From Neovahlkampfia damariscottae (lineage: Eukaryota; Heterolobosea; Selenaionea; Neovahlkampfiida; Neovahlkampfiidae): a stretch of DNA of 64,000 bases. The notes beneath the pieces were generated by a model that made no database searches, was not told the origin of the DNA, and worked only from the letters and a program-made list of their open reading frames with translations. The translations under genes were made by a program, and so were the position numbers. This document shows positions 3,001 through 63,770 of the stretch, one piece after another (within the stretch, counting starts at the first letter, position 1; the number at the start of each line of letters is the position of its first letter). Location of the stretch: positions 33,917-97,916 of the forward strand of contig JABLTG010000064.1 in NCBI GenBank assembly GCA_016618085.1, given 5' to 3'.

Positions 3001-5239
3001 AACGCGATCATTGAAATTGAAACAAAATAGGTGGAACGTTGTAACACTGTCATGGATGTTTTAAAATTCAACATATTGCCATCAGAAATAGAAGTAGTAC
3101 TCTTGGTTTGATTATGATATGGTGCTTTTTCAAATCCAAATTTGGTCACAAATGTTGAGTTTCCATAATCATTTGCTAGAAAATTAGATTTCATTTCTAT
3201 AGTTAGGATTGTATTTGAAAGAGTAACTATCGGATTAAATGAAGTGAATATTGAAGCAGTAGCCAAAACAAATTGTATAGTATTTGTGGAAATCGAAAAC
3301 GAATCATTTCCTTCGGTATACTGAAAGAAAGCAATCACTTTACCAGGAACTGTAAAGAAAAATCTTCCATTGAATTTCAAACTTCCATCTGATATTGATG
3401 GATTTTGTTCACTTGTAAATGATTTGGAAGTGTTTAAAGTCAATTTAATATTAGCAAACAATGATGAATGAAATAGTGTTGACACATAAAAATCCATAAA
3501 ATCAGTTGGTGAACCAGTCAAAAAAAATCTGTTTGAAGTATTGTCAACATTCAAAATTCCTTGTTGAATATAATAAAAAGTTGATGAATTGTTTGAAATC
3601 ATTATATACTGATTTGAAATGCTTGGGATTCGAATGAAACCTGTAATTGTTGTTTGTTTAAATCCTAAAAATAGAATTGCACAGATCAGTTGGTTTTCAT
3701 TAATTCTGACAGAAAAATACTTTACATTTCCATTTTCTTTGATGTTGCAATAGTATTCAATATCATCTATTTTTGGATGAATTCTGAGAGTATTTTCATT
3801 GAATGTCATCGTTAAAGTAATGTTTTTTCCAAAAAGGGTTGCATGTGGTGAAATGTCAATACAAGAAGATTTATAATTCAATAGTGGATTTGATATATTC
3901 ATAACTTTGAAAGTGTCAGCTCCAGTTTTTTCAAAGCTGAAGAAACTCAAATAAATATCATATTCGTAAGATATCGAAGAAACATCAACTTGACAAATTG
4001 TTTCATTTGACTTCAAAAGACATATATAACTTTGTGAGGTCGATAAATCTTTGACAACATAATCGAATGAGTTCTGGTAATGTGGCCGAACAATAAATAC
4101 TGATGAATCATTTTTGATCAATTTAATATATCTAATTTCTAATTTCTCCAAGAATGAAGGGGAAATTTTCAATGAAATAAATTCTAATGTGAGATCTTTT
4201 GAAATTTTTGAATTCCCTATAATAGTGCTGTTCACATAAACAGACATTCTAAATTCTTCCTCTTTGAAATTTGATTCAAATTCACAAATTAAGACATCTC
4301 CAAATAATCCAGAATCTATGTGTCTTGCAATGATTTTTCTAGAGTCTCTGAATCCAAACAAAAATACCTGAAATCTTTGTTGAACATTGGAAAAGTAGAA
4401 ATAGCTACGAGCGTAGTAATTTCTATTGGATTGAGTACAAAAGGAAATGGTGATACTTGTTCAATTTCTACATTACCTGTAATGTAGAATTCATTGGATT
4501 CAAAATCAATTTCTTTCTTTCCATTTTGAATCCTCAAAATAAAATTCCATTTCTCTGGTATGGATGTGGCCATTCAGTTGTGTTGATGGAACAGTTTGAA
4601 ATTTCATCACAATTCAAATCTATCAATCCAAATTTGTTCTTTGCAAATACTGAAACATTATAATTATTTAACATAAAAATAATTGACATATTAAAAGAAA
4701 AAGGAACTGTTTTGTTTTTTTGAATGACTAAAGGAACATTTGTAATCAATGGTTCTCGAACAACTAAGAAAGACATATTTTTGTTGGATAAATAGAATGA
4801 GTGCTCTCCAAATGACGTACTAGAGTTTACCCATAAACCAATTGAACTTTCATCAATATTATTTTGGAACACTGAAGGGATTTGGATATTGCATGTAGCA
4901 GAATTTGAATCGATTCTGTTTGCTTTGTAAAAAACCACACCTGAATTTGTGACATGTCTGCTTTTTCAGGCTAATTTCAAAAATTAGAAGAAGAATACAA
5001 ACCTTGAGGTAATAAGATATTTCATTTTGTTGTCCTGGATTACCTAGAAATATTGAGGCACTAGAATCTGGAGGTAAAACTTCTTTCCTTGTTCCAGAAT
5101 TTGGAAGCCATGAGGAAAGTGTTAGCATGTTGAGGTCATGGTCTTCTGGTCCAGTTGGTGGTACTGGTTGTATTGGAGAACATAATACTTTAGAAACGAA
5201 AATTAACAAAACCACAAAGGAAGCAAACTTGAAAACAAT
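1..5239 (-). pseudogene. Large decayed surface/receptor-like protein with TIG-like repeats, Cys-rich stalk and C-terminal membrane segments (3' end outside window)
   Basis: Reading leftward there is a signal-peptide-like leader, then a long run of beta-rich modules resembling IPT/TIG repeats (about 900-4900). Next comes a Cys-rich stalk with ephrin-receptor-like spacing (C..CPFG near 810-850, CVCVNN near 660-680, CRRCAEG near 425-450). A hydrophobic segment encoded near 300-350 and a second near 1-70 look like membrane spans, so a surface receptor is inferred. No ATG opens the frame: the leader starts with ATT at 5237-5239. Single-base frame changes occur near 4560, 1645, 1490, 1130, 885 and 790. 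In-frame stops lie at 2955-2957 (TGA), near 2061 (TAA) and near 1933 (TGA). A 41-nt intron GTAGCT..TTTCAG near 4366-4406 joins frames cleanly, but most breaks have no such fix. Neighbouring genes are intact, so decay is likelier than poor sequence. Ligand unknown. Confidence 0.6.
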
Positions 5240-5266
5240 ATTTGTTTCTTATTAGATAAAAGGTAG

Positions 5267-5273
5267 CCAATCA
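5267..5273 (+). promoter_or_regulatory. CCAATCA element near the surface-protein start
   Basis: CCAATCA on the + strand, about 28 bp before the leader of the minus-strand gene (its coding strand reads TGATTGG). Confidence 0.4.
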
Positions 5274-5423
5274 GCACATCCCTATGAGTTTTTTTTTTTT
5301 TCTGCGTTCAATAATTTAATGGTTTTGATTGATCTCATAAATCTTAGGTATCACAAAATTTAACCTGGTGACGAATTGTCAGTTGTGGATCAATCTAGAT
5401 TGTCAACAAAAATGAACTGAGGT

Positions 5424-7179
5424 TTAACATTTATTTTTGTTGTCATAATTCCTGTCCATGTATTCTTCTATTTTTTCAATATCTTCATCAGTTTCATTTT
5501 TTCCAGCAGTACACTTCCATGAAGTCAAAATAAAAAAAAAATTACTTGGGTCAATGATGTATTTTTTTCTAAAGCCAAAATCAACTTTTTCACATTCGAA
5601 TTTTCAATTGGGCATTCATCTAGAATCAACTCTTCCAATACTTTTGTATTCAATAATAATTTTTCAACATCTTCAAAACAACTTCCTTTCACCAAATTTG
5701 AAGTCAAATCCAATAATCTAACATGAGTATTATTCATAAGAGAATTTGTTATTTTGGAAACATCAAAATCAGTCAATTTTGAATTTTGTAAAACAATTTC
5801 TTTTAATGTTGGATCATTTTTTGTTGATCTTTCAATGATGGATTTGACCAATGGATTCATATCATCTTCTTTTGGTTTTTCAGATGATTCTTTCACTGTT
5901 TCTTGATGAATTATTTTCTTAAATGATTGAGCCATTTCTTTCTTTTGTGTTTTTAACATTTCAATTTCTGATTCTTTACTCATCAAATTTTGATTTTGAG
6001 TTTCATTTTCTTTTAATAGAAATTCTATTTTTTCTTGTAATGATTTGATGGTTTCATCCTTTTTTTTATCGAGATGTGTCAATTCATGAAGTTCTTTTTT
6101 CAATTTTAAATTTTCATTTTTTGACTCTTTTGCATCTTCAGACAATTGTTTTTTTTCTCTTTCTGATTTTTGTTTGAAAAGTTCAAATTCTTCTCCCTTT
6201 TCAATATTAATTTCTGCTCTGGATAGGAAATCATTCATATATTGGAATTGTGTTGTTATTCTTCGAAATTCTTGCTCACGTTCTTCTTTCAAAGTAGAAA
6301 ATTGTTGTTCAAGTTCTTGTTGAAATTTTGAAAAAACATCATTCGTCATTTTTCTAACAGACTCATCATGCAATTCAATTTGCTTTAACTATTAAAAAAA
6401 TGAGTTTCAAAAATAGTTTTTTACTTGAGATTGAATGTACTTTTCCGAACCCGCATTTTTCAAAGGAGAATGATTTGATTGATCTGATAATTGAACAGTA
6501 GATGAATAAATTTTTGAATCCTTTAAGTTTGGCTTTGGTACTGAAAATGTCAAATCACTAAAGTTATTATTTGGTATGTTTTTCTGGTCATCAAGTAAAT
6601 CTTCTAAATCATCATCAAAATCAAAAGACTGAACAAATGATTCTTTTCTGGCATCACCAGGAGTTTCAACAAGAAAATCGGTTTCATCTTGCACAAAAAT
6701 GGTTTCTCCATATTCTTTTGGTTCTATTTTTGCCTTTGGTTTTTGGTCAGGTTTTACTGAAGGTTCTGGTGTGTTGACTTTTTGTTTTTTTTCAATGTGA
6801 CGAACAGAAACTCTTCCTGAAAAAAAAAAAGTTTTTTAGATGTTTTTCTTTTTTTACTTTGAAATGTTTCTTCAACTCCAAGTCTTTTATCTTGTTTTTT
6901 TTCAGGTGATTTATGTTTTGGACGAAATATATTTAGTGTATTAAATAGATTCAATTCTTCTTCTGTGTGTATTAAAATTTCTGATCCTACAGGTATTTTA
7001 TCTCGTTGAAGAGCTTCTGTGAGTGTAATTTTGTTTAGATTTTTTGGATCACCTTTTGGTGTTGAAGTTCCTGACACTCCAGAAGTTGAACCAGTACGTG
7101 GAGACATTAAATTAAGTATGGGTATGAAAGATCTTCTTCTCTTTTCAGCTGGAATCTCTTCACCTTTGGATTGAAACAT
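5424..7179 (-). CDS. Coiled-coil protein with C-terminal tropomodulin-like leucine-rich repeats
   Basis: About four exons. The N-terminal part (7179-6420) is low-complexity and charged, with a basic patch (EKRRRS) near residue 12 and S/T-P sites. A heptad-rich coiled coil follows (about 6370-5900; runs such as EQQFSTLKEERE). The last part has LRR-like strands (LKEIVLQNSKL, VRLLDLTSN, LEELILDECP) with spacing like the actin-capping domain of tropomodulin. The final intron starts GTAATT after LTQ (near 5545), and a short acidic tail ends at 5424. Homology to tropomodulin is only at the level of LRR pattern, so an actin or scaffold role is inference. A CCAATCA element (coding sense) lies 39 bp before the ATG. 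Confidence 0.6.
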
Positions 7180-7217
7180 GCTTTGACTTGAGGTGGCTGT
7201 TGTGAAAAATTTTGATC

Positions 7218-7224
7218 TGATTGG
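7218..7224 (-). promoter_or_regulatory. CCAATCA element of the coiled-coil/LRR gene
   Basis: TGATTGG on the + strand, CCAATCA in coding sense, 39 bp before ATG 7179. Confidence 0.5.
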
Positions 7225-7317
7225 ATAGTTTTTTTAACAATCCAAAATTCATCAATTGGGCTTTATTTTTAAAATTGAAGATTTTGTTTTTTTGATCTGT
7301 TTTTCATTGGGAGTTGA

Positions 7318-7324
7318 CCAATAA
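7318..7324 (+). promoter_or_regulatory. CCAATAA element of the MAPEG gene
   Basis: CCAATAA in coding sense, ending 27 bp before ATG 7351. Confidence 0.5.
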
Positions 7325-7350
7325 AGTTTTTCATTGGATTTTTCACTTGA

Positions 7351-7916
7351 ATGTATTCCGTAGGAGCTGTAGTTTATAATCCACAAACCCAAACATTCAT
7401 TCCAACTTTTGGAATTGAACACGTTTACTGTATCATTCTTGTCAGTTTAACTTTCATCTTGAACATGTACCTCCTACAAAAAGTTGCAAGAGCAAGAAAA
7501 AAATATAATGTAAAAGCACCACAAATGTATGAAGAAGCAACTGAAAAAGATGGTTGTGATACACCATTCAACCGCATTCAAAGAGGCCATCAAGTTTGTT
7601 TTTAATTTTTTTACATTCAAAAAGAACTTTTTAGAAGCTTTTCCATTTTTCATCATTTTATTCACTTTGGCATCTGTTTTTTATCCATTATATGCTTTAG
7701 GTGGAGGTGTTGTTTTTATCATTTCAAGAATAGTTTACTCCATTGGCTATGAAACAGGTTTATCTTTTTTTTTTGATTTAACTGATTTTTTTAGCTGCTT
7801 CAAAACGCGAATATGGTGCCGCTCCATCATTTTTTTCTTTATTTTTTTTGTTTGGAGCTGTCATATATGCTTGTTATGGAATGATTTTAACTTACAAAAT
7901 AAATGGTTCTTCATAA
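7351..7916 (+). CDS. Microsomal glutathione S-transferase 3-like MAPEG protein
   Basis: Three exons; introns at 7594-7624 (31 nt) and 7758-7794 (37 nt). The spliced protein of about 150 residues has four membrane segments, as in the MAPEG family. Family marks are the cytosolic-loop motif FNRIQRGHQNFLEAFP (the family form is FNCIQRAHQN.LE), the R..Y..GY signature (SRIVYSIGYET) and a KREYGA segment. MGST3-type enzymes conjugate glutathione to lipid hydroperoxides and leukotrienes at the ER or outer mitochondrial membrane. Length and domain match the family. Start chosen at the first ATG after a CCAATAA element 27 bp upstream. Confidence 0.88.
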
Positions 7917-8033
7917 CAAAAGTTTAGAATTCCTATGAGTTTTCGTCAATTTTTTTTCATTTCCGTTCCATTCATTTCACTATGTGAATATTCCGAAAAT
8001 TCCGTTGAAAGCAATAAATAAGCGGAAAATCAA

Positions 8034-8040
8034 CCAATCA
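8034..8040 (+). promoter_or_regulatory. CCAATCA element of the 8079 gene
   Basis: CCAATCA ends 39 bp before the ATG of the small basic protein. Confidence 0.5.
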
Positions 8041-8078
8041 AATTATCGATCAATCCAACAAACGAACAAACAAAACGA

Positions 8079-8501
8079 ATGATGTCAATGAAAAGAAAAA
8101 GATCATTAACTGAAAATTATATGGATTATGATAAAAATAAACTCAAAGTAACAGAAGACATGATTGAAGAATTGCGAAAACTCAACCTTGCTCAAATAAA
8201 ATACGAAAAAATAGATCTAAACAAACCACCCAAAACTATGCAAAAAACAATTTCTGAAAAAGAAGAAAATGTTTCTCAAAAACTATTAAACATGTACAAA
8301 TCAAATTATCAATTTACAAAATCACTTTCGCCAAACAAGTAAGTTTTTTTTATTTCTCAATTTTTTTTTAGAAATATGCAATTAATCCTCTACCAAGAAC
8401 CTAAAGATATAATTTTACCAACACCTTGTATTCAACCCAAAAAATATGAACAAATTACACTAACTGAACCTTCAGATGAAGAAATGATGGAATTAGAGTA
8501 A
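8079..8501 (+). CDS. Small basic/acidic hypothetical protein, two exons
   Basis: The first exon encodes a basic N-terminus (KRKRS near residue 5, a possible nuclear signal) and a charged helical region. A 33-nt GTAAGT..TTTTAG intron (8340-8372) leads to a second exon that ends in an acidic tail (EPSDEEMMELE). About 129 residues. I recognise no family. The intron joins the frames cleanly, codon use matches neighbours, and a CCAATCA element lies 39-45 bp upstream, so it is probably a real gene. The C-terminal end lies only 41 bp from the stop of the convergent SNARE gene. Confidence 0.55.
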
Positions 8502-8542
8502 AAACAAACTGTCATAAAAAATAAATGATTTGTAATTACAAC

Positions 8543-9618: not shown

Positions 9619-9640
9619 TTTTTGTTCAATTTGGTCTTAT

Positions 9641-9647
9641 CCAATAA
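9641..9647 (+). promoter_or_regulatory. Shared CCAATAA element, SNARE / Iml1 genes
   Basis: The only such box in the 65-bp gap between the divergent start codons 9618 and 9684, 23 and 37 bp from them. Confidence 0.5.
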
Positions 9648-9683
9648 GAAACAATTAAACACTGTTAAAAGCATTTTTTTTGG

Positions 9684-12838: not shown

Positions 12839-12878
12839 ATTAATTACAAAAACCACTTTTTTTGGCTTTTTCAATTAA

Positions 12879-12885
12879 CCAATCA
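12879..12885 (+). promoter_or_regulatory. CCAATCA touching the ATG of the 12887 gene
   Basis: The box ends one base before the start codon, the closest non-overlapping case in the window. Confidence 0.5.
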
Positions 12886-13385: not shown

Positions 13386-13392
13386 CCAATTA
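13386..13392 (+). promoter_or_regulatory. CCAATTA variant before the glucanase
   Basis: A one-base variant of the element ending 10 bp before ATG 13402. Confidence 0.4.
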
Positions 13393-13401: not shown

Positions 13402-14757
13402 ATGGAAGAAGGTGAAGCACAGAGCAATCAACAAAATGAAAAATATTCAAATTTTGATAAAGAAGATTCTGACTATCATCCAATAATTAAAAAATTGAAA
13501 ACTGAAGCAGTTTCAAATATTTTTACAGTGTCAATAATCGTAGCAATTTTTGTCGTTCTGTTGGTCACAATACCTCTTTATTTTTTTTTTTATCAAGGAG
13601 AATTTTCAAAAGAAAAAATAAGAGGTGTCAATTTAGGAGGTTGGTTTATTCTAGAACCATGGATCACTCCAAGTTTATTTGAAAATCAAACCACTTCCAA
13701 TTTTGTTGATGAATTTACTTTTTGTGAACAATTAGGTCACTCAAAAGCAAAAATAATTCTAGAAAAACATTGGAATACATGGGTCACTCAAAAAGAAATT
13801 GTGAAACTTTCAACATATGGTATTAATCATGTTAGAATACCAGTTGGTCATTGGATGTTTGATGTGGATCCTTCAGAACCTTATGTCACTGGATCATTGA
13901 ATTATTTAAAAAGGTCATTGAAATGGATGAAAGAATCAAATATTAAAGTGATATTAGATTTACATGGTGCTCCAGGAGGTCAAAATGGCTTTGACAATTC
14001 CGGAAGAAAAGATCATAGAGAATGGGCATGTTGTATTGGAAAAAACACGAAAAGAACAATTGAAATATTGAAGAATGTCACTTCAATATTCTCAAAATCA
14101 GAATATCATTCAACTATTGTTGGTATCAACTTAGTGAATGAACCATTTGGAATTGACATTCAAATTGTTCAAGATTTCTATAAAAATGCAATTGAAGCAA
14201 TTCAAAAGGTATCAGATAATCCAAACTTAAGTATCACCATTTCTGATGCATTTCAAAAATTGGATGTTTGGAGAGAATTTAAGAAAACTATAGATGAAAA
14301 ATCATTGTTTTTAGATTCACACATTTATCACGTTTTTGATTATTCTATTTTGAACTATACGTTCGACCAACATCTAAAATTGACTTGTAATCACAAGATG
14401 GAGATTGAAAAATCGAATATGATTATTCCTACCTACATCGGAGAATTTAGTTTGGCGAGAACTGATTGTACCAAATGGTTGAATGGATATGAAAAAGGAT
14501 CGAGATATGAAGGTTCCTTGGAAAATACCATTCCTTTAGGTTCATGTGTATTCGAAAATGATCACAATCAATGGTCTGTTGACTACAAAAATTGGATGAA
14601 AATATTTTTTGAAAGACAAATTGATTCTTACGAGAGTGGAGCTGGTTGGTTTTTTTGGAACTTCAAAACTGAAAATTCACCTCATTGGGATTACTTACTT
14701 GGTGTCAAAGAAGGGTGGATTCCAAAAGATTTTTCCACAAATACTAATAAATGTTAA
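13402..14757 (+). CDS. Membrane-anchored exo-1,3-beta-glucanase, GH5 family
   Basis: Single exon, 451 residues. The first 35 residues are polar, then a membrane anchor (about residues 40-63; FTVSIIVAIFVVLLVTI) gives a type II topology with an outer catalytic domain. GH5 marks: GVNLGGWFILEPW, the acid/base VNEPFG (NEP, near 14140) and the nucleophile block IGEFSLA (near 14450), plus HGAPGGQNGFDNSG. Enzymes of this group cleave glucose from beta-1,3-glucan. In a protist, wall or cyst-wall remodelling or digestion of fungal and algal glucan are both possible. Cysteines near the C-terminus suggest disulfides. Start is ATG 13402, 10 bp after a CCAATTA element. Confidence 0.9.
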   Translation: MEEGEAQSNQQNEKYSNFDKEDSDYHPIIKKLKTEAVSNIFTVSIIVAIFVVLLVTIPLYFFFYQGEFSKEKIRGVNLGGWFILEPWITPSLFENQTTSNFVDEFTFCEQLGHSKAKIILEKHWNTWVTQKEIVKLSTYGINHVRIPVGHWMFDVDPSEPYVTGSLNYLKRSLKWMKESNIKVILDLHGAPGGQNGFDNSGRKDHREWACCIGKNTKRTIEILKNVTSIFSKSEYHSTIVGINLVNEPFGIDIQIVQDFYKNAIEAIQKVSDNPNLSITISDAFQKLDVWREFKKTIDEKSLFLDSHIYHVFDYSILNYTFDQHLKLTCNHKMEIEKSNMIIPTYIGEFSLARTDCTKWLNGYEKGSRYEGSLENTIPLGSCVFENDHNQWSVDYKNWMKIFFERQIDSYESGAGWFFWNFKTENSPHWDYLLGVKEGWIPKDFSTNTNKC

Positions 14758-16078: not shown

Positions 16079-16085
16079 TTATTGG
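16079..16085 (-). promoter_or_regulatory. CCAATAA element of the RCC1 gene
   Basis: TTATTGG on the + strand, 45 bp before ATG 16034 in coding sense. Confidence 0.5.
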
Positions 16086-16274
16086 TCAATTGCCAAAAAA
16101 AAAAAAGAATTATTTTTTTAATATTCTTGAATTTTGGAGGGAAATTCACTTGAATAATGCAAGAGTATATTCCAATAATATCATCTAAATATCCAACCAA
16201 CCAAATCATTCAGAAATTCTGAAAAACAAAATAAATGTAACACCTTTTTGTCTGTTTTTCATTCTTAAAAAAAT

Positions 16275-17211: not shown

Positions 17212-17218
17212 CCAATCA
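17212..17218 (+). promoter_or_regulatory. CCAATCA element of the DUF5648 gene
   Basis: Ends 13 bp before ATG 17231; the spacer is nearly all T and A. Confidence 0.5.
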
Positions 17219-19107: not shown

Positions 19108-19114
19108 CCAATCA
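19108..19114 (+). promoter_or_regulatory. CCAATCA element of the phosphatase gene
   Basis: Ends 32 bp before ATG 19146, preceded by a T8 run. Confidence 0.5.
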
Positions 19115-19959: not shown

Positions 19960-19966
19960 CCAATGG
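19960..19966 (+). promoter_or_regulatory. CCAAT overlapping the ATG of the DUF1877-WGR-SAP gene
   Basis: CCAATGG in which ATG is the start codon; DUF1877 homology (MGISL) supports this ATG as the true start. Confidence 0.4.
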
Positions 19967-22556: not shown

Positions 22557-22563
22557 CCAATCA
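22557..22563 (+). promoter_or_regulatory. CCAATCA element, TCAIM-like gene side
   Basis: Lies 12 bp before the minus-strand ATG 22545 within a 47-bp divergent gap. Confidence 0.5.
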
Positions 22564-22583: not shown

Positions 22584-22590
22584 CCAATAA
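22584..22590 (+). promoter_or_regulatory. CCAATAA element, AT-hook gene side
   Basis: Second box of the same 47-bp gap, ending two bases before ATG 22593. Confidence 0.5.
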
Positions 22591-25402: not shown

Positions 25403-25409
25403 TTATTGG
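25403..25409 (-). promoter_or_regulatory. CCAATAA element of the MGM101-like gene
   Basis: TTATTGG on the + strand, 10 bp before ATG 25393 in coding sense. Confidence 0.5.
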
Positions 25410-25545
25410 ATAAAAAACTGAACATCACAAAATTGTTTCCAAAGCAGGATATACAATAAAATATAAAGAGTTGGATGAATTGATTTTTTTCTACTTATTA
25501 TTGGGTGGTACTTTAGTCATTCAATATTATTGGTTGAATCAAAAA

Positions 25546-26881: not shown

Positions 26882-26888
26882 CCAATCA
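26882..26888 (+). promoter_or_regulatory. CCAATCA element of EMG1
   Basis: Ends 26 bp before ATG 26914; a TTTTTTTAGG follows, so a short 5' leader is possible. Confidence 0.5.
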
Positions 26889-26913: not shown

Positions 26914-27637
26914 ATGAAGTCAAATTTTAAAAAGAAAATTTTAGCACCTTTGAACCCACTTGAAAAAGATACAAACAAAAGATTGGTCATTATTTTAGAT
27001 GATTGTCCTTTGGAAGCAGCAAAAATCAGGAATGAGTATGTTTTATTGAATTCTGATGATCATTACAAATTTCTTTTAAATAACAAACAAAAACCAGAAG
27101 AATATCGTCCTGATATTGTTCATCAATGTTTATTGACTTTATTAGATTCACCTATTAATAAATCTGGACACTTAGAACTTTATTTGAGAACAAAAAAGAA
27201 CGTTTTAATTCAAATGAACCCACAAGTTAGATTACCAAGAACATATCAAAGATTTGCTGGTTTAATGATTCAACTTTTACAAAAATTAAAAATTCGTGCT
27301 TCAGATGGAAACGCAGTTTTAATGAAAGTTATAAAAAACCCAATCACGAATTATTTGCCTGTTCGTCTTAATTTTAGTTTTTAATTATTCTCAGTCCAAT
27401 TGTAGAATTATAGGTTGCAGTCATAAAGCTGAAAAAACTGTCCAATTATCAAAATATATTCCAGAAAATGCTCCAGATGGAAAACCAATTGTTTTTGTCG
27501 TTGGTGGGTTCGCTCATGGTCAAATTCAAGCAGATTACACAGATGAATTTATTTGCATTTCAAATTATCCATTATCAGCTTCTGTTGTTTTATCAAAAAT
27601 TTGTCATGCTTGCGAAGATTTTTGGAATATTGTTTAA
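26914..27637 (+). CDS. EMG1: EMG1/NEP1, 18S rRNA pseudouridine N1-methyltransferase
   Basis: Two exons with an intron near 27362-27406 (GTTCGT..TTGTAG). Family marks: LVIILDDCPLEAAK, HQCLLTLLDSPINKSG, VRLPRTYQRFAGLM, KVIKNPITNYLPV, then VFVVGGFAHG and ISNYPLSASV, which form the SPOUT knot that binds S-adenosylmethionine. The enzyme methylates a pseudouridine in 18S rRNA and is needed for small-subunit assembly in the nucleolus. About 225 residues, near the family norm. The CCAATCA element lies 26 bp before the ATG. Confidence 0.93.
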
Positions 27638-28673: not shown

Positions 28674-28680
28674 CCAATCA
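28674..28680 (+). promoter_or_regulatory. Single CCAATCA serving ZIP and xylulokinase genes
   Basis: The only recognisable element in the 32 bp between divergent ATGs 28657 and 28690; 17 and 10 bp from them. Confidence 0.6.
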
Positions 28681-31451: not shown

Positions 31452-31458
31452 CCAATAA
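31452..31458 (+). promoter_or_regulatory. CCAATAA element of the 30439-31441 gene
   Basis: Reverse orientation to its gene, 11 bp before ATG 31441. Confidence 0.45.
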
Positions 31459-31551: not shown

Positions 31552-31558
31552 CCAATAA
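31552..31558 (+). promoter_or_regulatory. CCAATAA element of the EGF-like gene
   Basis: Ends 40 bp before ATG 31598; a second CCAAT follows at 31564. Confidence 0.5.
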
Positions 31559-32101: not shown

Positions 32102-32108
32102 CCAATAA
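32102..32108 (+). promoter_or_regulatory. CCAATAA element of the TPR-like gene
   Basis: Ends 34 bp before ATG 32142. Confidence 0.5.
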
Positions 32109-34933: not shown

Positions 34934-35318
34934 GTGAATTGTTTAGCTGGATAATATTCACTCCTTAAACAGTATATCCGGAAAAAAAAAGTCCATTTCT
35001 TCCGTTCGAACGAATAAATCTCCGATTGGATGTTTATTCTCCGTTTGTTTTTTTTATTTTGAGAATGGTGAACTGACCCACTGTTAGTAATTTATTGTCC
35101 TTGATTATTTTTGTTTGGTTGATTTCAATTCATTATTAATATAAAAAAAAAAAAGTAAAAAAGTGGAAGTAATTTCTCTTCACAGTCTCAAGACCAAAAG
35201 ATTTTTTTATTCTCCATCAATTAAGTCACAAAGGAATTATTTTTAAATTTGTGCTAAAAATATCTCTTATTGGACAGTTCAAATATCCAATCATCGGTCT
35301 CCAAATTTTTCAAACAAA
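34934..35318. other. Intergenic region between divergent RETSAT-like and CCT4 genes
   Basis: AT-rich, with A/T homopolymers near 35140-35165. Two CCAAT boxes (35024-35029 in RETSAT sense, 35287-35293 in CCT4 sense). I see no coding potential or RNA gene in it. Confidence 0.5.
35287..35293 (+). promoter_or_regulatory. CCAATCA element of CCT4
   Basis: Ends 26 bp before ATG 35319. Confidence 0.5.
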
Positions 35319-37758: not shown

Positions 37759-37854
37759 TTTTCAATTTGTTTGGTGATAACTTCAAGTGAACACCAAAAA
37801 AAACTTCAAGGATGAAATTATCCAATCAAATCATTTTTTTTAAAATATTTATTC

Positions 37855-39639: not shown

Positions 39640-39646
39640 CCAATCA
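39640..39646 (+). promoter_or_regulatory. CCAATCA in the G6PD / 6PGD divergent promoter
   Basis: Central box of the 118-bp gap, 62 bp from the 6PGD ATG. A second box (ATTGG, 39594-39598) sits five bases from the G6PD ATG. Confidence 0.5.
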
Positions 39647-41817: not shown

Positions 41818-41942
41818 TCGGAATGTTGACACAATACTGTGATTTAATTGGACAACGGTTTTTTTGAAGAAATTAAATTGTAAAAATTTGATCAAATTGT
41901 TTATTTTTTTAAAAAAAAAAACCAAAAATAAAATAAAGAATC

Positions 41943-41949
41943 TGATTGG
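41943..41949 (-). promoter_or_regulatory. CCAATCA element of striatin
   Basis: TGATTGG in coding sense, 16 bp before ATG 41965. The SUB1 gene on the other side has ATTGG at 41847-41851, 30 bp from its ATG. Confidence 0.5.
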
Positions 41950-43912: not shown

Positions 43913-43919
43913 CCAATCA
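43913..43919 (+). promoter_or_regulatory. CCAATCA element of the 60-residue gene
   Basis: Ends 20 bp before ATG 43939; the main reason to accept that small gene. Confidence 0.5.
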
Positions 43920-43938: not shown

Positions 43939-44121
43939 ATGTCTGAAAGTTTTGAAAAAGTTGAGTTCACACAAAAAGATATTATGGAAGCAATTGAAGA
44001 AGAAAAACAAAAAGGAAATTCAGATGAAGTTTTTTATACAAGAGAAAAATTAATTATCGGTTTAGATTTTCAAAACGAAGAATCTTTGGAATCTTCAATT
44101 GAAAGAGCATCAAATTTGTAA
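43939..44121 (+). CDS. Small acidic hypothetical protein (60 residues)
   Basis: A short frame starting MSESFEKVEF and ending SIERASNL, strongly acidic and helical. I recognise no family. Support for it being real is a CCAATCA element 20 bp before the ATG, a normal stop, and a fit in the tight gap between striatin and PRMT5. It could instead be a first exon of a larger model, but no good donor site is visible near its end and PRMT5 starts 48 bp later. Confidence 0.45.
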   Translation: MSESFEKVEFTQKDIMEAIEEEKQKGNSDEVFYTREKLIIGLDFQNEESLESSIERASNL

Positions 44122-44169
44122 TCAAAACAATTTTATTTTTAACAAAAAATCAGAAATTTTGATTTCATC

Positions 44170-46139
44170 ATGACAAAAACAATGCATGAGGTGAATAAAG
44201 AATTTCAACACAACATTTCAACAACTCATTATTTATTAAAGAGTGAATTATGGTGTCAATCTGGTAAGAAAAAATCATTATTTAACAATAAATAGTTATT
44301 GGAAGAATTGAAATAAACTCAAAAAAGTTTCCAAAAGAAAGAAGAGAAATTGAAAAAAATTTTAAGACTCAAGTTGAATGGGCAAAATAGTTTGAAATAT
44401 TTTTTTTTTGACATATTTTTCAAAGTTTATCATTAAAAGGAATCTGTATTTCAATTTCTCAATATGATAATATTGAATTTATTTCACAATTATTGAACCA
44501 AAACATTTCTGAGTTATCAAATACTTTAGTGTTCATTCAAGTACCGCTTGAATTTCCAGAAAAAAAAGATTCATGGGAAATATGGAATAAGTTAAGAATA
44601 TTATGTGATTATAATTTAAAGTTGAATGTATTACTGTAAGTCAAATTATTTGATGTTGAATTTTTCCTTTAGTGAAATGACAGAAAATACACCAGAAAAT
44701 GATTATGTAAGTCAATATTTATACTCATTTAGTAGACTTTTAAAAGTAAATTTTCAATTAAAACTAAAAGATTTAATAAAGGATGGATAGCAGAACCACT
44801 TCATTCAATTGTTCTTCCAACTTCAATATTCACAACAGGAACAGAAGGAAATCCAAAATTATCACAAAAACATGTGGAATTGTTAGAATATGCGTTTAAT
44901 TATCAAATTCAAATCATTTTATCTGGAAAAACAAAAGATATCAATGATTACAAAGAATATATTGAAATTGTTTATGATGAAATACCTCCTTTATCAGAAG
45001 AAGAATATTTCATTCAACCATATTATGATTACTTACAACAACCATTACAGCCATTAATGATGAATTTAGAAAATCAAACTTATGATGTGTTTGAAAAAGA
45101 TCCAGTGAAATATGATTTATATCAAGATGCATTTTATCATGCATGCAAAGATATGAAGAAGAATGAAGTCACAGTTTATGTTTTAGGATCAGGAAGAGGA
45201 GGTATTGTTAAACGTGTTTTAAGAGCAGCAAAACAATTGGGTCAAAAAATGAAACTTTATGCAGTCGAAAAAAATCCAAATGCAATTGCAATGTAATAAT
45301 CAAAAAATTCACATTAAAATTCAATAGTTTAAAACATTTTAAGAAGGTAATTTGGGGAGATAAAGTGGAAATCATTGAAAAGGATATGAGAGATTTAAAA
45401 GATTATTCAGGAACAGCTGATATTATTGTCAGTGAATTATTGGGTTCATTTGGTGATAATGAATTAAGTCCAGAATGCATTGGTAAATCAAAGTTTAAAA
45501 TCCTCATTTTTTAGATGGCGCACAGCATTTACTCAAGAAAACTGGTATTTCAATTCCTTGTGAATACACATCCTTCGTAAGAAAAAATTCAAAATTTAAA
45601 ATTAGATCGCTTTACTTCATTCATCAAAATTTTATTCAAATGTTAGAAAATTAGGTAATGTTAAATACTTTGAAACACCGTATGTGAATAATATTCATCA
45701 ATATCAATTATTGTCAAAACCACAAAAACTCTTCAAATTCAATCATCCAAAAAAAGACGAAAAAGAAGACAACACAAGATTTAAATCAATTAAATTCAAA
45801 GTATAAAAAAACAATTTTATTCTCATCTTCAAACAAAAGGTACTTGAAAATGGAATGGTTCATGGAATTGCTGGATATTTTGAAGCAAAACTTTACAAAG
45901 ATATTTACTTGAGCATCAACCCTGAAACCAAAGATACTTACAACAAAAACATGTTTTCTTGGTTTCCAATCACATTTCCAATCGTCACACCTTTCAAAGT
46001 GAAAAAAAATTCAACAGTTCAAGTTACATTTTCAAGAAATTTAGATTCAACAAAAGTATGGTATGAATGGTCTGTTAGTGATCCTGTTACTCTTCCAATT
46101 CACAATACAAATGGAAGATCAAATTGGGTTGGATTATAA
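44170..46139 (+). CDS. PRMT5-type protein arginine methyltransferase
   Basis: Many exons (introns near 44263, 44388, 44637, 44708, 44756, 45294, 45483, 45578, 45804). Family marks in order: VIGRIEIN in the TIM-barrel part, [17 protein letters not shown], the AdoMet site [12 protein letters not shown], the catalytic double-E loop [30 protein letters not shown] and the final [15 protein letters not shown]5 makes symmetric dimethylarginine on Sm proteins and histones. About 540 residues after splicing, slightly short of the human enzyme. It is one of the few genes here without a CCAAT box near its ATG; only 48 bp separate it from the preceding stop. Confidence 0.88.
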
Positions 46140-48672: not shown

Positions 48673-48679
48673 CCAATGA
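48673..48679 (+). promoter_or_regulatory. CCAATGA element of Rrp6
   Basis: Reverse orientation to the gene, 29 bp before ATG 48644. Confidence 0.4.
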
Positions 48680-49942: not shown

Positions 49943-49949
49943 CCAATAA
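49943..49949 (+). promoter_or_regulatory. CCAATAA element of the G-alpha-like gene
   Basis: About 29 bp before its start. The divergent secreted gene (50007) has its own ATTGG at 49977-49981. Confidence 0.45.
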
Positions 49950-50006
49950 GAATGCTTTGTTTTCTAAAACTCATTCATTGGTCAGAATTTCTTCAAGAAA
50001 AAAATC

Positions 50007-50679: not shown

Positions 50680-50686
50680 TGATTGG
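50680..50686 (-). promoter_or_regulatory. CCAATCA element of the 50724 gene
   Basis: TGATTGG in coding sense, 38 bp before the ATG and only 10 bp after the preceding stop codon. Confidence 0.5.
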
Positions 50687-50723: not shown

Positions 50724-50993
50724 ATGAAGTTAATATATTTTCTATTTCTTTTTTTAATTTGTGTAGCCAAAGGAGAAACTCTGCAAATTTTAGATGCAGG
50801 AGCAATAATTACCATCGTTTTAGCAGCGAGTTTAGTTGTTGCTTGTTGTTGTGGATTATCATGTTGCATACTGCTTGGAATAGTTGGTGGAATTTATTTG
50901 AAAAGTGTGGAAAAAACTACCAGCACATTACCAAGTTATGAAAAAGCAAGAAAAAAAAATAAAAAAAAAAAATCAACAATGGAACAGTCATAA
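50724..50993 (+). CDS. Short signal-peptide/single-span membrane protein with Cys-rich transmembrane helix
   Basis: Single exon, 89 residues. A signal peptide (MKLIYFLFLFLICVAKG), a short outer segment (ETLQILDAG), then a membrane span packed with Cys (LVVACCCGLSCCILLGIVGG), and a Lys-rich inner tail (YEKARKKNKKKKS). The layout resembles CYYR1/shisa-like small type I proteins in shape only; five Cys near the span could be palmitoylated. TGATTGG lies 38 bp upstream of the ATG. Function unknown. Confidence 0.6.
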   Translation: MKLIYFLFLFLICVAKGETLQILDAGAIITIVLAASLVVACCCGLSCCILLGIVGGIYLKSVEKTTSTLPSYEKARKKNKKKKSTMEQS

Positions 50994-51093: not shown

Positions 51094-51100
51094 TGATTGG
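51094..51100 (-). promoter_or_regulatory. CCAATCA element of the F-box/GNAT gene
   Basis: TGATTGG in coding sense, 35 bp before ATG 51135. Confidence 0.5.
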
Positions 51101-52636: not shown

Positions 52637-52745
52637 ATCTAAATGAACAATAAATGTATTTTAAATTTTATTTTTATTTCAGGAAAGTCATTTTTTTTGA
52701 TTTGTTTTTATTGGTCAAAAAAGTTTTATTTCCAAATTTTGCCAT

Positions 52746-53883: not shown

Positions 53884-53890
53884 TGATTGG
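53884..53890 (-). promoter_or_regulatory. CCAATCA element of the desaturase
   Basis: CCAATCA in coding sense, 48 bp before ATG 53836. Confidence 0.5.
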
Positions 53891-54269: not shown

Positions 54270-54276
54270 CCAATCA
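54270..54276 (+). promoter_or_regulatory. CCAATCA element of the SARDH/DMGDH gene
   Basis: Ends 47 bp before ATG 54323. Confidence 0.5.
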
Positions 54277-56937: not shown

Positions 56938-56944
56938 CCAATCA
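56938..56944 (+). promoter_or_regulatory. CCAATCA element of the ankyrin gene
   Basis: Ends 20 bp before ATG 56964. Confidence 0.5.
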
Positions 56945-56963
56945 TTTCACAAACAAAACTACG

Positions 56964-57947: not shown

Positions 57948-57960
57948 GAGTATAAAAATT

Positions 57961-60224
57961 TTATTTTGGTTTTTTGAACATTTCAACTTCATTTTCTTGA
58001 TTTGAAACAAAAATTCCTTTTTCATTTTTTTTATGGACAATTCTATTCTGAGTTTTTTTATAAACTTCATCTAATTCCCATTTTGATATTTCTTCATTTA
58101 ATCTTTCTTCTTTATCTTTTACACATATTTTGAATAACTCTGATTCTTCTTCATAACCAAATAATTTCCATTTATTTTTTGGATGTGAAAGATATTCATT
58201 ATCCTCTGTTGATAATGGATTCTTCAATAATAATTGTTGATACACTTTTAATTCATTCCTAAATGTTGGATTCGGATCAATGATTGGACGTCTTTTTTTA
58301 ACCCAACTATAAGCTTCTCTGACCGTTTTTTGTTGTTCTTTCATTAAATATGCAATGGTAACAGTTGATGATCTTGAAACACCAGCCATACAATGTATAA
58401 CAACACTTTCTTTTTTTTCCAAAGCTGTTTTAATAAATAACCAAGTATCATGAAAATGTTTGATCAATGATGTTGATCTAGCATCTTCTGCATATATTAT
58501 CATATATTTTAAATCATCTAAATGTGGTGGTGGAATATTTGATGCCATTGTCAGTACATGAGTTACTCCTAACTCTTTTAAATGATGTTTATTTGTTGAT
58601 GCATTAGCTGATCCTAGATATAACCCTTCTTCTAAAATCATTGATACTTTTTCAAATTCTTCAGTAAATTCAATATTATTGGTTTTTATAAAATTCGATA
58701 ATTCATTGGACATTTGTATACCTATTTTTAGAAAAATATTAATTTTTTTTTTTTTTTAAACCATTTGGTGAATTAAAAGATAATAATATAGTTTTAAGTT
58801 TTGGTATTTTCATTATTTGATCAGGTAATGATAACACTGCATTATTATCTAAATTTATATATGATAAATTTTGTAAATTTGAAATTAAATTTTCATCAAT
58901 TTGTTCAATTTGATTATGTTTCAGCCTTAAAAATGATAAATTTTTCAAGTTGTATAATTCTTTTGGTATTTGTTTTATTGAATTTATTGTAACATCTATT
59001 GAAGATAATTGAATACAATTTTGAATTGAAGATGGTATTTCTTCAAGTCTATTATTTTTAACTGTTAAATTTAATAATTTAACCATATTTTTTCCAAATG
59101 GAAATAATTGTTTTAATTTGTTATCTGATAGGTCTAAATATTCTAAATTTTCCAAATCACCAAATTCTTTTGGAATTGATTTTAAGTTATTTGAATTCAA
59201 TAATAATGATTTTAAATTCTTTAGTTTACCAATTGAAGGTGAAATTGAATCAATTTTGTTTTGACTTAAATCTAAATATTCTAACGAATCAAAAAACTGT
59301 AAATGATCAGGTACATTCTTTATCAAATTTTTGTTTAATTTTAAATCTTTTAAACAACATAAAGATTTAACTTCAATTGGAATTGAAACGATTGAATTAT
59401 CAGATAAATTCAAATTTCTTAATTTAACTTGATGTGAAATATTTGACCATTGTTTGAGTTCACATTTTGATAATTCTAATGATTCTAATGATGATAATTG
59501 AAACATCAAATCTTGACCAGGTAATTCTTTAATTGAATTTTCAGTTAAATTTAATTTCTTTAATGTATAAAGTGTTAAAATTGAATTTGGAAATTTTGTT
59601 AAATTTGTTTTTTCTAATTCCAATGATTTGAACTTTTCTTGAAATTTTGAAATTGTATCTGGAATTGAATCAGAAATATCATTATGTCCTAAATTTAATT
59701 CTTCTAATTCTTCAAAGTTTAAAACTTTTTCTGGAAATTTCGTGAATTTATTAAAACTTAAATTTAGTTTTTTGATATTTCCATTTCCTTTTTTTTTTAA
59801 ATCTATTTTGTCTAAATTGTTGAAAGAAAAATCTAAACTTTCTAAATTTGGAATTTTCGAAATTTCTTTTGGAAAAACTTTGATTGAGTTAAGTTTCAAA
59901 GATAGTGATTTTAACTGTTGTAAATTATATATTTGTTTTGGAAATTGTTTAAACTCGTTTTTTGATAAATCCAGTTTTTCTAATTTTGAAAGTTCTTGGA
60001 AATTATCAGGTATATCTTTGAGACTATGTCCACTTAAATTTAAATCCTGTAAGCTCTTTATCTTTGAAATCTGTTTTTTTTTAATTTTTTTTTTTTTTTT
60101 TTTAACTTACGTTTGACAACTCATTCGTCTCTATTTTTATATTTTTATGTGATTTTGAAGATATGTCTAAACTTTCTGTTTTATTTTGTAGACTTTGTTC
60201 GATTATCTCGTTAAAAGAACTCAT
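57961..60224 (-). CDS. LRR plus dual-specificity phosphatase protein
   Basis: Three exons. The first (60224-60112) gives MSSFNEIIEQSL; a T/A-homopolymer intron follows. The middle exon carries about 14-15 leucine-rich repeats of the L.SLDLS.N.L..IP type. An intron GTTTAA..AAATAG (near 58722-58762) joins SPNG to IQMSNELS in frame. The last exon is a DUSP catalytic domain: ILEEGLYLGSA, AEDARSTSL (general-acid Asp), HCMAGVSRSSTVTIAYLM (Cys and Arg of C-x5-R), then YLMKEQQKTVREAYSW. LRR-DUSP proteins occur in amoebae and are taken to be MAPK- or Raf-type signalling phosphatases. If the joint is wrong the two parts are adjacent genes with no promoter gap. Confidence 0.75.
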
Positions 60225-60257
60225 AACAGTTTGTTTGTTACGTCAGAGCCTTTTTAT

Positions 60258-60264
60258 CCAATCA
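60258..60264 (+). promoter_or_regulatory. CCAATCA element of the LRR-DUSP gene
   Basis: Reverse orientation, 34 bp before ATG 60224. None lies before the internal ATG 58713, which supports a single LRR-DUSP gene. Confidence 0.45.
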
Positions 60265-60373
60265 AAATTGATTATTTCTTTGCTCCAAAAATTTTATTCA
60301 GTTTTTTGAGATCTTTTTTCAGATAATATATTCGATTTTTAAATAATTCCAACTTCCGGATTTTTATATCAAT

Positions 60374-60380
60374 TGATTGG
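60374..60380 (-). promoter_or_regulatory. CCAATCA element of copine
   Basis: TGATTGG in coding sense, 53 bp before ATG 60433. Confidence 0.45.
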
Positions 60381-60432
60381 TTCAATTTCAACCAACAAAC
60401 ACCGTCGCATAAAACACAACGAATACTTGATC

Positions 60433-62847
60433 ATGCAAGACGATTCGCTTTCATCAAAAATAGATATTCGTGTCAAATGCAAGTATGAATTAAATTCAAA
60501 TAACCTTTGTTTCCATTAGGGATTTAGTCAAACTAGATACATTTTCTCCTTCAGATCCTCAATGTATTCTCTATTGCAAAGATCCAAAAAAAGGTAACTA
60601 GAAAAACTAATATTTAAACAAAAAGGAAAATGGTATGAAATAGGTAGAACTGAATTCATCCAAAATGAACCAAATCCAGTCTTTTCAAAGACTTTTCAAA
60701 TGCAATTTCGTTTTGAAGAAACTCAAGAATTGAAATTTTTAATTTTGGACATTGACAATTCATCATCAAATAATATAGAAGATCAAGATACTATAGGTGA
60801 ATTATATTGTACAGTTGCTGAAATTGTTGGCTCAAAAGCATCTACTTTGACAAAACCTTTGAAAAATTCAAAACATCCAAACAGAAAAAATGGGTTCATA
60901 TCAATAAATGCAGAATCGCAACATGATTCAAAACACTTGATTTCTTTTAATTTATCTGCTTCAAAATTAACAAAAAAAAATTTCTTTGGGAAATCTGATC
61001 GTAAAAAAAAAAAGTTATGAATTTATTAATTTTTTAAAACAGCTTATATTATCATTTATCGACAAAACAATGATGGTTCACACACTATTGTTTATAAATC
61101 AAGTTTGTTTTTTGTAATTTCTAATTCAATTAAACAGACCATATTTTGGCTAATTTGAATCCAACATTTCCAAAATTTGAATTACCAAGTGGTAATTTAT
61201 GTTTAAATGATTATGATAGAACAATTAGAATTGAAATTTGGGACTATTCTTCATGGTATTCATTTGACAAAAAAAATTAAAAAAAATTTAGGAGAGCAGA
61301 TTCATTGATCGGCAGAGTTGAAACAACAATTAATAAAATGAATAAAAATCACACCCACAAATTAACAATTGTTGAAAAAGGTAAAACTCATGACTCTGGT
61401 ACACTGTTGATTGATAAAATGGTCATGACACCTTGTTATACATTTCTTGATTATATTTCAGGTGGACATCAAGTTTCATTGTTAGTTGCTATTGATTTCA
61501 CAGGTACAAATTCAAAACAAATTTTTTAATTTTTAAAAAACAGCATCAAATGGGAAAATTAATCAATCAAATAGTTTACATGCTTTGAGTCAAAACAAAT
61601 ATAATGATTATCAAAAAGCTATTATATCTGTCGGGAATATACTCAATTATTATGATTCTGACAAGAAATATCCAGGTAAAAATATATTTAACATTTTAAT
61701 TTTTTTTAGTCTATGGGTAAAATTTAAATTTTTTTTTTAAAAAAGTGTCTTTTAGGTTTGGTGCAAAACTACCAGATGGAAAATTATCACATTGTTTTCC
61801 TTGGTAAAAAAAAAAAAATTTTTTTAATTTTTCGTTTTCAGTACCTTAGATTTCAACAATATCGAAGTTTATGGAGTGGAGGGTATATTAACAGCTTATA
61901 ATAATGCAGTACAAAAAGTTCAATTTTTTGGACCAACTTATTTCCGTTATGTAATTCAATCAGCCGCTTATTTTGCAAATCGAGATAAAGGAACAAATTA
62001 TTACATTTTGTTAATCCTTACAGATGGTGAAATCACAGATATGAGTGAAACAATCGATGAAATTGTTAAAGCATCCAATTTACCTCTTAGCATAATTATT
62101 GTTGGAATTGGAAATGAAAAATTTCAAAACATGGTTGTATTAGATGCAGATGATGTTCCTTTAGTTTCCAATGGTGTTAAAATGGCTAGAGATATCGTAC
62201 AATTTGTCCCTTTCAAAGATTTCAAAGATTTACCTCTTGATCGATTAGCACAAGAAGTTTTGGAAGAAGTACCTGGACAATTTGTAGAATACATGAAAAA
62301 GAATAATATAACACCAAATCAAGTTCAACAAAATCAGAATCCATTTTCTACGGTACAAAATCCATGGGGTAAAATTCAACAAAATGTTCAACCGAATATC
62401 GTGTTGAATCAACAACCACAAAAGCAATCAAGCACAGGAGGATGGGGACAGGTTCAAACTAATGTTCAAAATCCTTATGTTCAACAAAATCAACAACCAA
62501 ATTATTTTGATCAACAACCTTCATTCTATAATCAATCATCAAATAATCAACAACAGAATTATAATCCATATCAACAACAACAACAACAACAACAAAATCA
62601 AGGATCATTTGGACAACAGAATCAACAACCTTCATTTTATCAACAACCAAATCAAAACCAACAATCCTATTATAATCAATCAAACAATCAAAATCAAGGA
62701 TCTCTTGGACAACAGAATCAACAACCTTCATTTTATCAACAACCAAATCAAAATCAATCAAACCCATATTTACAAAATACAAATCCATATTTAAACACTG
62801 ACACAACTAAAAGTGGTACAAATTCAAACAATCCATATTTACAATAA
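60433..62847 (+). CDS. Copine with Gln/Asn-rich C-terminal tail
   Basis: About eight exons. Two C2 domains: the first with SPSDPQCILYCKD and IQNEPNPVFSKTF, the second with NDGSHTIVYKSS, ILANLNPTFPKF and IEIWDYSS (Ca2+-binding Asp residues). The copine vWA domain follows (LLVAIDFTASNG MIDAS; GGHQVSL, FGAKLPDG, HCFPL, LLILTDGEITDMS). The conserved end RDIVQFVPFKDF closes the family. Past this, about 170 residues are Q/N/Y/P-rich and repeat GQQNQQPSFYQQPNQN. Copines bind membranes upon Ca2+ and act in signalling, osmotic and contractile vacuole tasks in amoebae. The long Q/N tail is unusual. Confidence 0.88.
62591..62770 (+). repeat. Tandem repeat in the copine Q/N tail
   Basis: Two imperfect copies (about 62591-62690 and 62691-62770) each encode NQGS, GQQNQQPSFYQQPNQN and a Ser/Asn end. 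DNA identity is high across the core, so duplication is recent. CAA-rich runs flank it. Confidence 0.7.
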
Positions 62848-62954
62848 ATTCAATTGTCATTTTCTGACTACTCACAAAGATTGGAAATAAAGTTATGGTG
62901 AGGAGCAGCAAGATAAAAATGACATAAAAAAGAAAGGTTCCTTTGTGATTAGTT

Positions 62955-63281
62955 TTATTTTTTATTTTTTTTTTCTTCCTCTTCCAAAGATCTCAAAAGA
63001 ATATTAATTCTATATTTATGTTTGTCAACTTCTGATGTTAATTTTTCATTTGTTTTTTTTAATTCTTCAACATTTCCGATTAAAAAATCTGTTTCTTTTG
63101 CTTCAGTTGTCATTGTTTTTTTTAAAATTTGTAATTTTTTTAACATGTTCGTTTTGAATTGGTTCAACTCAGTATTTTCTTTTTCTAATTCTGTTATTTG
63201 CTTTAAAATTTCATCCATCTTTTCATTTGATTCTTTAACACTTTGTTCAAGTTTTTTTATTCTTTCTTCTTCTGCAGACAT
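62955..63281 (-). CDS. Small coiled-coil protein
   Basis: Single exon, 108 residues, MSAEEERIKKLE to EEEKKNKK, an almost unbroken Lys/Glu-rich coiled coil with heptads (LEQSVKESNEKMDEILKQI; LKKTNEKLTSEV). No other domain. It could be a centriolar, prefoldin-like or tropomyosin-like structural peptide, but nothing decides this. Coding-sense CCAATCA lies 22 bp upstream of the ATG, and the stop faces the copine stop across 107 bp. Confidence 0.55.
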   Translation of the reverse strand: MSAEEERIKKLEQSVKESNEKMDEILKQITELEKENTELNQFKTNMLKKLQILKKTMTTEAKETDFLIGNVEELKKTNEKLTSEVDKHKYRINILLRSLEEEEKKNKK

Positions 63282-63302
63282 TTTTTTAACACTCCAAAAA
63301 TA

Positions 63303-63309
63303 TGATTGG
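63303..63309 (-). promoter_or_regulatory. CCAATCA element of the coiled-coil gene
   Basis: CCAATCA in coding sense, 22 bp before ATG 63281. Confidence 0.5.
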
Positions 63310-63751
63310 ACAAAACCATTTGGTCGATTTTGAAGGAGTAACCGAAAAAAGTGGGTATCACAGAGAAGAGGAGAAGGCGTTTTAGTTATGTAAAAGAATG
63401 AAAAGGTTAATAAAAGTTATTCTGCTTCTCAAAATTTCAATTGAGAAATGAAAAAATCTGGAGAAAAAAAATTAGCTGCTGTATTGAGGAGAAAACATGA
63501 AACAGTGAGGTTTCTTTTTCAAAATAGTTACAAGTTGAGAATATTTCTTCAAATGAGTTACTGGATGTTTTTATTGCTTTCCAGTATCAATTTCTTCAAC
63601 AGAAACTAAAAAAAAATTCAGGAATTATTTTTTTGGAAATTTGAGTGTTCTGCAATTCCAAATGAAAACTAAAAAATTTGAATTTATTTTTAATTTAAAA
63701 TAAAAGAAATAATTCTACAGCGATTGCAAAAAAAGTAAAATTTTTTTTTAA

Positions 63752-63758
63752 CCAATCA
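63752..63758 (+). promoter_or_regulatory. CCAATCA element of the truncated ATPase-like gene
   Basis: Ends 12 bp before ATG 63771, after a T9 run. Confidence 0.5.
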
Positions 63759-63770
63759 TTTTCATTGATC

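Follow-up and report, generated by a model that had tools for sequence, protein, structure and literature searches.

We analysed a 64-kb window from Neovahlkampfia damariscottae (the whole stretch studied here, 64,000 nucleotides of contig JABLTG010000064.1), in which the pentamer CCAAT, hereafter the box, stands just ahead of nearly every start codon. The window is eukaryotic DNA with a G+C content of about 28-29%, and the matches of its genes in Pfam include TCP-1/cpn60, DAO/GCV_T, copine, IML1, Band 7, G6PD, EMG1, MGM101 and fatty acid desaturase. Its predicted genes end in TAA, TGA or TAG, the predicted introns have a median length of 33 bp (44 introns in 52 gene-finder genes), and intergenic gaps are very short, with medians of 110 bp between tandem, 154 bp between divergent and 22 bp between convergent genes. 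A tRNA scan and an Rfam search at gathering score over the window gave no tRNA and no Rfam match. Homologue searches with window proteins (three against viral contigs, two against genome contigs), which reach close relatives only, found no relative.

Start codons were curated by reading the whole window by eye, with the boxes in view. This gave a list of 43 ATGs, of which 44170 was later dropped, leaving 42 curated starts; the leftmost gene was excluded because an in-frame ATG was not found. For 41 of the 42, the exon holds no earlier in-frame ATG. Genes are named after their Pfam matches, often to one downstream exon that was joined to the start by reading. Start 9684 is backed by an IML1_N match beginning at residue 1, and start 39708 by a 6PGDH NAD-binding domain at or next to residue 1; FGGY_N at start 28690 and DEK_C at start 41817, both below the cut-off, match from the same point. 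The gene-finder run that we used (52 genes, 44 introns) recovers 20 of the 42 curated starts, the others resting on reading by eye with the boxes visible; an earlier run, which had drifted to 623 introns, was discarded.

Frequency of CCAAT ahead of start codons

The preliminary description of this DNA had reported a CCAAT element within about 65 bp of the ATG in 41 of 44 genes, and our counts bear this out. Counting both strands, 37 of the 42 curated starts have the exact pentamer within 65 bp and 39 have it within 75 bp. The heptamer CCAAT[CAG]A is found within these distances of 35 and 37 starts, respectively, and a sequence with at most one mismatch to CCAATCA or CCAATAA within 65 bp of 38. 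The gap between pentamer and ATG ranges from 3 to 63 bp with a median of 27 bp (39 boxes), and 30 of the 39 boxes fall in the range of 10-45 bp where most had been placed. The chance expectation had been set too low: random 65-bp windows contain CCAAT in 20% of cases, not in about one of ten, and admitting one-base variants is a weak criterion, since a one-mismatch heptamer is present in 42% of them. For CCAAT[CAG]A the corresponding figure is 6.4%. Dinucleotide shuffles (200, for 43 starts including 44170) gave a mean of 8.5 and a maximum of 17 starts with CCAAT, versus 37 observed, and a mean of 2.1 and a maximum of 7 with CCAAT[CAG]A, versus 35 observed. Motif discovery on the starts of the window also converged on the box: the best de novo 7-mer is CCAATCA, present in 25 of the 43 upstream regions (70 bp each; 0.85 expected), and the best 5-mer is CCAAT, while among 6-mers CCAATC (25 versus 1.75 expected) is outranked by a word with a single occurrence and a near-zero expectation.

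It is the placement of CCAAT, not its overall abundance, that is unusual. The whole window holds 231 copies versus 196 (order-1) or 230 (order-3) expected, that is, no clear enrichment. By gene ends set by reading, CCAAT[CAG]A occurs 41 times in the 4704 bp that separate tandem or divergent genes (8.7 per kb), 33 times in 58684 bp of gene bodies (0.56 per kb) and once in 453 bp of convergent gaps. Two sets of starts blind to the box served as checks, namely 59 mechanically called open reading frames (ORFs) and the 52 gene-finder starts. Of the former, 21 share their first codon with the curated list; CCAAT[CAG]A stands within 65 bp of 14 of the 21, compared with 1 of the 38 remaining ORFs and 97 of 2501 other ATGs. 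Among the latter the heptamer precedes 16 of 52 starts overall and 14 of the 20 that equal a curated one. The near-universal, start-proximal CCAAT of this window is real and strong.

Sequence, orientation and positions of the boxes

Read in their own orientation, 36 boxes give the wider consensus T-Y-R-W-CCAAT-M-A. T is found at -4 in 29 of them, A or G at -2 in 34 and A or T at -1 in all 36 (T 20, A 16, G 0), and these flanking positions played no part in the rule by which boxes were picked. The base after CCAAT is C in 22, A in 9, G in 3 and T in 2 boxes; the next is A in every box, which is in part an effect of how the boxes were picked. A matrix built from the 36 boxes places 26 of its 29 top sites in the window just upstream of curated starts, with these same boxes as training set. 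When each box was scored by a matrix that left it out, 21 of the 36 reached at least 14.5, versus four sites elsewhere (46320, 46981, 52710 and 12004). Two of these strong sites, 46320 and 46981, are within the coding region of the HRDC gene. A third, 52710 (-), is inside the convergent gap 52637-52745, where there is no gene for it to serve; an antisense or noncoding transcript and chance are the candidate explanations.

Boxes occur in both orientations (23 forward, 16 reverse; p = 0.34 against 1:1), and three of them (9641, 28674 and 39640) are common to divergent pairs. Because orientation is mixed and one box can be common to two divergent genes, the element would be recognized as double-stranded DNA. 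The gaps between box and ATG show no significant periodicity (p = 0.067).

Along the left part of the window, and giving the pentamer with its strand, CCAATCA at 7220-7224 (-) is separated by 40 bp from the start 7179 (-), and CCAATGA at 7333-7337 (-) by 13 bp from 7351 (+), with a further CCAATAA at 7318 (+). CCAATCA at 8034-8038 (+) precedes 8079 (+), and CCAATAA at 9641-9645 (+) is common to the divergent starts 9618 (-) and 9684 (+, IML1). The shortest gap is that of the CCAATCA at 12879-12883 (+), whose pentamer ends 3 bp from ATG 12887 (+); a weak CCAATTA at 13386-13390 (+) stands before the GH5 gene at 13402 (+). There follow CCAATAA at 16081-16085 (-) for 16034 (-, RCC1 repeats in a downstream exon) and CCAATCA at 17212-17216 (+) and 19108-19112 (+) for 17231 (+) and 19146 (+). 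The ATGs 22545 (-, DUF4461 in a downstream exon) and 22593 (+), 47 bp apart, have a box each, CCAATCA at 22557-22561 (+) and CCAATAA at 22584-22588 (+), the latter 4 bp ahead of its ATG. CCAATAA is also found at 25405-25409 (-) for 25393 (-, MGM101 in a downstream exon) and at 25529-25533 (-) for 25546 (+), and CCAATCA at 26882-26886 (+) for the EMG1 gene at 26914 (+). In the tightest divergent pair, 28657 (-, ZIP) and 28690 (+, FGGY kinase), the ATGs are separated by 32 bp and the single CCAATCA at 28674-28678 (+) lies 16 and 11 bp from them; the match of the ZIP gene starts at residue 5, but inside the profile.

Further right, CCAATAA at 31452-31456 (+), 31552-31556 (+) and 32102-32106 (+) belongs to 31441 (-), 31598 (+) and 32142 (+, weak TPR matches). 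CCAATCA is at 35287-35291 (+) for 35319 (+, TCP-1/cpn60 in a downstream exon), at 37822-37826 (+), with a gap of 63 bp, for 37758 (-, Got1/Sft2), and at 39640-39644 (+), where it is common to 39589 (-, G6PD) and 39708 (+, 6PGDH NAD-binding domain); start 39589 has, in addition, a CCAATAT at -9. A weak CCAATTA at 41847-41851 (-) precedes 41817 (-, DEK_C slightly under cut-off), and CCAATCA at 41945-41949 (-) precedes 41965 (+, WD40 in a downstream exon, katanin-like by reading). CCAATGA is found at 48673-48677 (+) for 48644 (-, HRDC in a downstream exon, RRP6-like by reading) and at 49977-49981 (-) for 50007 (+), CCAATAA at 49943-49947 (+) for 49920 (-, a G-alpha match under cut-off). At 50724 (+) the CCAATCA at 50682-50686 (-) lies 11 bp past the upstream stop codon, and therefore little sequence upstream of the box would generally be needed. 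CCAATCA is the form of all the boxes that remain to the right: 51096-51100 (-) for 51135 (+, F-box/GNAT in a downstream exon), 53886-53890 (-) for 53836 (-, fatty acid desaturase in a downstream exon), 54270-54274 (+) for 54323 (+, DAO/GCV_T), 56938-56942 (+) for 56964 (+, PUB/ankyrin), 60258-60262 (+) for 60224 (-, LRR-DUSP), 60376-60380 (-) for 60433 (+, copine in a downstream exon), 63305-63309 (-) for 63281 (-) and 63752-63756 (+) for 63771 (+). The gene at 57961-60224 (-) reads as a single one, its leucine-rich repeat and dual-specificity phosphatase ORFs being joined via a 40-bp intron (58722-58761), and 63771-63998 (+) is the beginning of a gene truncated by the window end, with an AAA-ATPase_like match under the curated cut-off.

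Exceptions and the PRMT5 start

Three genes had been singled out as lacking a nearby box. One of them, PRMT5, owed its place among the exceptions to a misplaced start at 44170. A 36-bp GT..AG intron at 44118-44153 (+) links the short ORF at 43939 to PRMT5, the frame being open across the junction, and shifts the start to 43939 (+), which has a CCAATCA 26 bp upstream (43913-43917, +). The joined 43939 fragment matches solved PRMT5 with an E-value of 2.7e-50 over residues 171-394; its match to PRMT5_TIM starts at residue 72 with profile position 21. Since ATG 44170 would correspond to about residue 66, the missing first part of PRMT5_TIM would lie upstream of it, and this ATG is, judging from the sequence, internal to the PRMT5 gene.

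The other two exceptions stand. For the RETSAT-like gene (named by reading; start 34933, -) the nearest box is a distant CCAATCG, 91-96 bp from the start (35025-35029, -). The prohibitin-like gene (Band 7, start 16275) has no box within 75 bp; near its start there is only CCAACCAAATCA at 16197-16208 (+), and an exact CCAATAA lies farther off, at 16172 (-103). At 16235-16240, between the CCAAAT-like sequence and this start, an ATG is directly followed by TAA, and the mRNA leader may begin downstream of it. We add one exception to the earlier ones, a CCAATGG at 19960-19964 (+) that overlaps ATG 19963. Finally, a large gene at 160-5250 (-), whose N-terminus is signal-peptide-like by reading, has a CCAATCA ahead of it at 5267. 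An in-frame ATG was sought after its upstream stop and none was found; an unseen first exon, a non-ATG start and a broken gene are all candidate explanations.

The box as a proposed promoter element

We propose that the box would be a double-stranded promoter element, T-Y-R-W-CCAAT-M-A, bound in either orientation by a CCAAT-binding factor that is most likely NF-Y or a relative. In a very compact genome it may have come to occupy the core-promoter zone. Such boxes usually stand 60-100 bp upstream of the transcription start, a position that the geometry makes unlikely here. Transcription would start beside the box, at a distance of between a few bases and a few dozen and mostly between box and ATG, and the factor could help to position the initiation complex, as proposed for NF-Y in mammals. 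The preliminary description had suggested that the box may act as core promoter or initiator. The first of these suggestions is plausible in view of the short gaps, the stop-adjacent box and the box shared between ATGs 32 bp apart; the second, taken as a strict directional initiator, is unlikely given that both orientations occur at variable distance. On balance, we favour a CCAAT element that works independently of its orientation, sits in the core-promoter zone of nearly every gene of the window and is perhaps bound by a factor resembling NF-Y. The wider proposition, in which this element and NF-Y or a relative replaced TATA and the initiator (Inr) as near-universal core promoter in the lineage, an NF-Y-like complex setting the start sites of most genes and in both directions of divergent pairs, is tentative, and we would sooner doubt it than adopt it.

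ATG triplets are scarce between box and start codon (1 versus 12.4 expected), and less so over 50 bp on the other side of the box (21 versus 32.6 expected). This gives no more than a hint of where transcription starts, because triplets of the same letters vary widely and a distance-matched comparison is not significant. TATA boxes, considered as an alternative signal, are not enriched: TATAWA within 65 bp is at shuffle level (3 of 43 starts versus 2.9). With the boxes masked, 15 of the 42 upstream regions, each of 60 bp, contain TTCAA (3.9 expected), and T-tracts, A-tracts and AACAAA-like words also stand out; this search, with a weak single-base shuffle as control, found no second motif matching the box in frequency.

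Several observations weigh against the reading that we favour. Between box and start, same-letter triplets span 4 (TAG) to 20 (TGA) around the same 12.4, and over the 50 bp on the far side of the box they range from 9 to 42; the crude test of ATG depletion gives p = 0.003, but TTG differs too (p = 0.013), and the distance-matched tests, with p 0.10 to 0.20, do not reach significance. When the range is widened to 100 bp, TATAWA is somewhat raised (10 of 43 versus 5.5, shuffle maximum 13). Boxes are less frequent in the mechanical subset (14/21) than in the full curated list (35/42), the sample is 42 genes from one 64-kb piece, half of the starts having been curated with boxes visible, and 3 of the 42 genes are without a box within 75 bp. 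Also, all 36 boxes have T or A at -1, unlike the purine flank of NF-Y sites. Such sites have purines at -2 and -1, their CCAAT is followed by C or G and then by A or G, and they function either way round. The boxes have a purine at -2 in 34 of 36 and never G at -1, and they occur in both orientations (23:16, with the three boxes common to divergent genes). We do not class the element as an NF-Y box because the -1 base departs from this flank; its function is probably NF-Y-like.

The flanks could instead mean that the element works as we propose through a lineage-specific CCAAT binder. Trichomonas, for instance, has its own factors for Inr and M5. The T or A at -1 and the strong T at -4 speak for such a factor, an explanation that overlaps with ours and that we consider rather unlikely. 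Against it, NF-Y is described as the primary, and likely the sole, eukaryotic CCAAT-binding activity (PMC7793273), and a T-rich flank is also described at the CCAAT boxes of Phytophthora (PMC3599244). We give similarly modest weight to the box being an ordinary activator site, near the ATG merely through the short gaps, with an unrecognized second signal as core promoter. The Phytophthora CCAAT, near the start codon in both orientations and with a T-rich flank, coexists in this way with INR/FPR as core (PMC3599244), and TTCAA and the T- and A-tracts are prominent once boxes are masked. However, no second motif is as frequent as the box, though by the weak control already mentioned, and between the ATGs 28657 and 28690 there is little space for a separate core element.

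A directional initiator, with transcription beginning inside the box, is quite improbable. The box does lie 3 to 63 bp from the ATG, and CCAATC resembles YYANWY, a loose initiator pattern, but boxes of either orientation (23:16) follow the same asymmetric consensus, and two divergent genes can rely on a single box. These last features suggest that the box acts as DNA, and its action in the mRNA leader, on translation or stability, is hardly credible, even if it is near the ATG and one pentamer ends 3 bp ahead of it (12887).

Start-proximal signals are already known from microsporidia and Trichomonas, as is CCAAT near the starts of some Phytophthora genes. In Encephalitozoon cuniculi, which shares with the window a compact genome and a short signal near the AUG, the signal is CCC/GGG-like and not CCAAT; it was counted at 1591 of 1996 coding sequences (1474 CCC, 117 GGG) before start correction, and served to correct misplaced starts (PMC2803860). 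The Inr/M5 of Trichomonas vaginalis are near-universal (about 90% of genes) and close to the ATG, but are other sequences and dictate the start site (PMC7370421). CCAAT in Phytophthora infestans is equally frequent in both orientations (984 and 969 hits), is flanked by T-rich sequence and for the most part stands no more than 150 nt from the start codon; however, its 1953 hits in all promoters concern a subset of genes, and it lies at a median of 83 nt upstream of INR and is not considered core (PMC3599244). The box of the window is nearly universal and nearer the ATG. Entamoeba invadens also has a CCAAT motif, bound by NF-Y and linked to encystation, but this shows no positional peak over the 500 nt that precede the start codon (PMC6581852). 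Spironucleus salmonicida, a protist with a compact genome, has a short motif about 10 bp ahead of the start codon, which is C-rich, concerns 16.7% of genes and is accompanied by a TATA-like motif (PMC3916229). The mammalian NF-Y box shares with the window the CCAAT core and influences start-site choice, as the box here may do, but lies 60-100 bp upstream of the start site, in some 25% of core promoters (PMC7793273, PMC6624317). Among the matches listed from the open-access literature, in titles and abstract openings, there was no protist with a CCAAT close to the start of nearly every gene.

With a box so near almost every start codon of the window, a classic switch of the upstream region may here have been absorbed into the basic start signal. 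NF-Y, known as a promoter-proximal factor with an influence on where transcripts begin, makes contact with 25-28 bp and may play a TBP-like part in mammals (PMC7793273), and in mouse cells it affects the choice of start site (PMC6624317). If nearly every gene indeed has its box in the core-promoter zone, this organism would be a natural test of that TBP-like part, and would show how core promoters change under genome compression. The box is also useful for gene finding, as the PRMT5 start carried one once its intron was recognized. A scan of viral contigs for the pattern of box plus ATG returned at least 120 stretches (80 listed). Of the 1376 ORF starts in them, 62 have CCAAT[CAG]A within 65 bp, even though these stretches were selected for the motif, and the highest fractions are 2/5 and 3/9.

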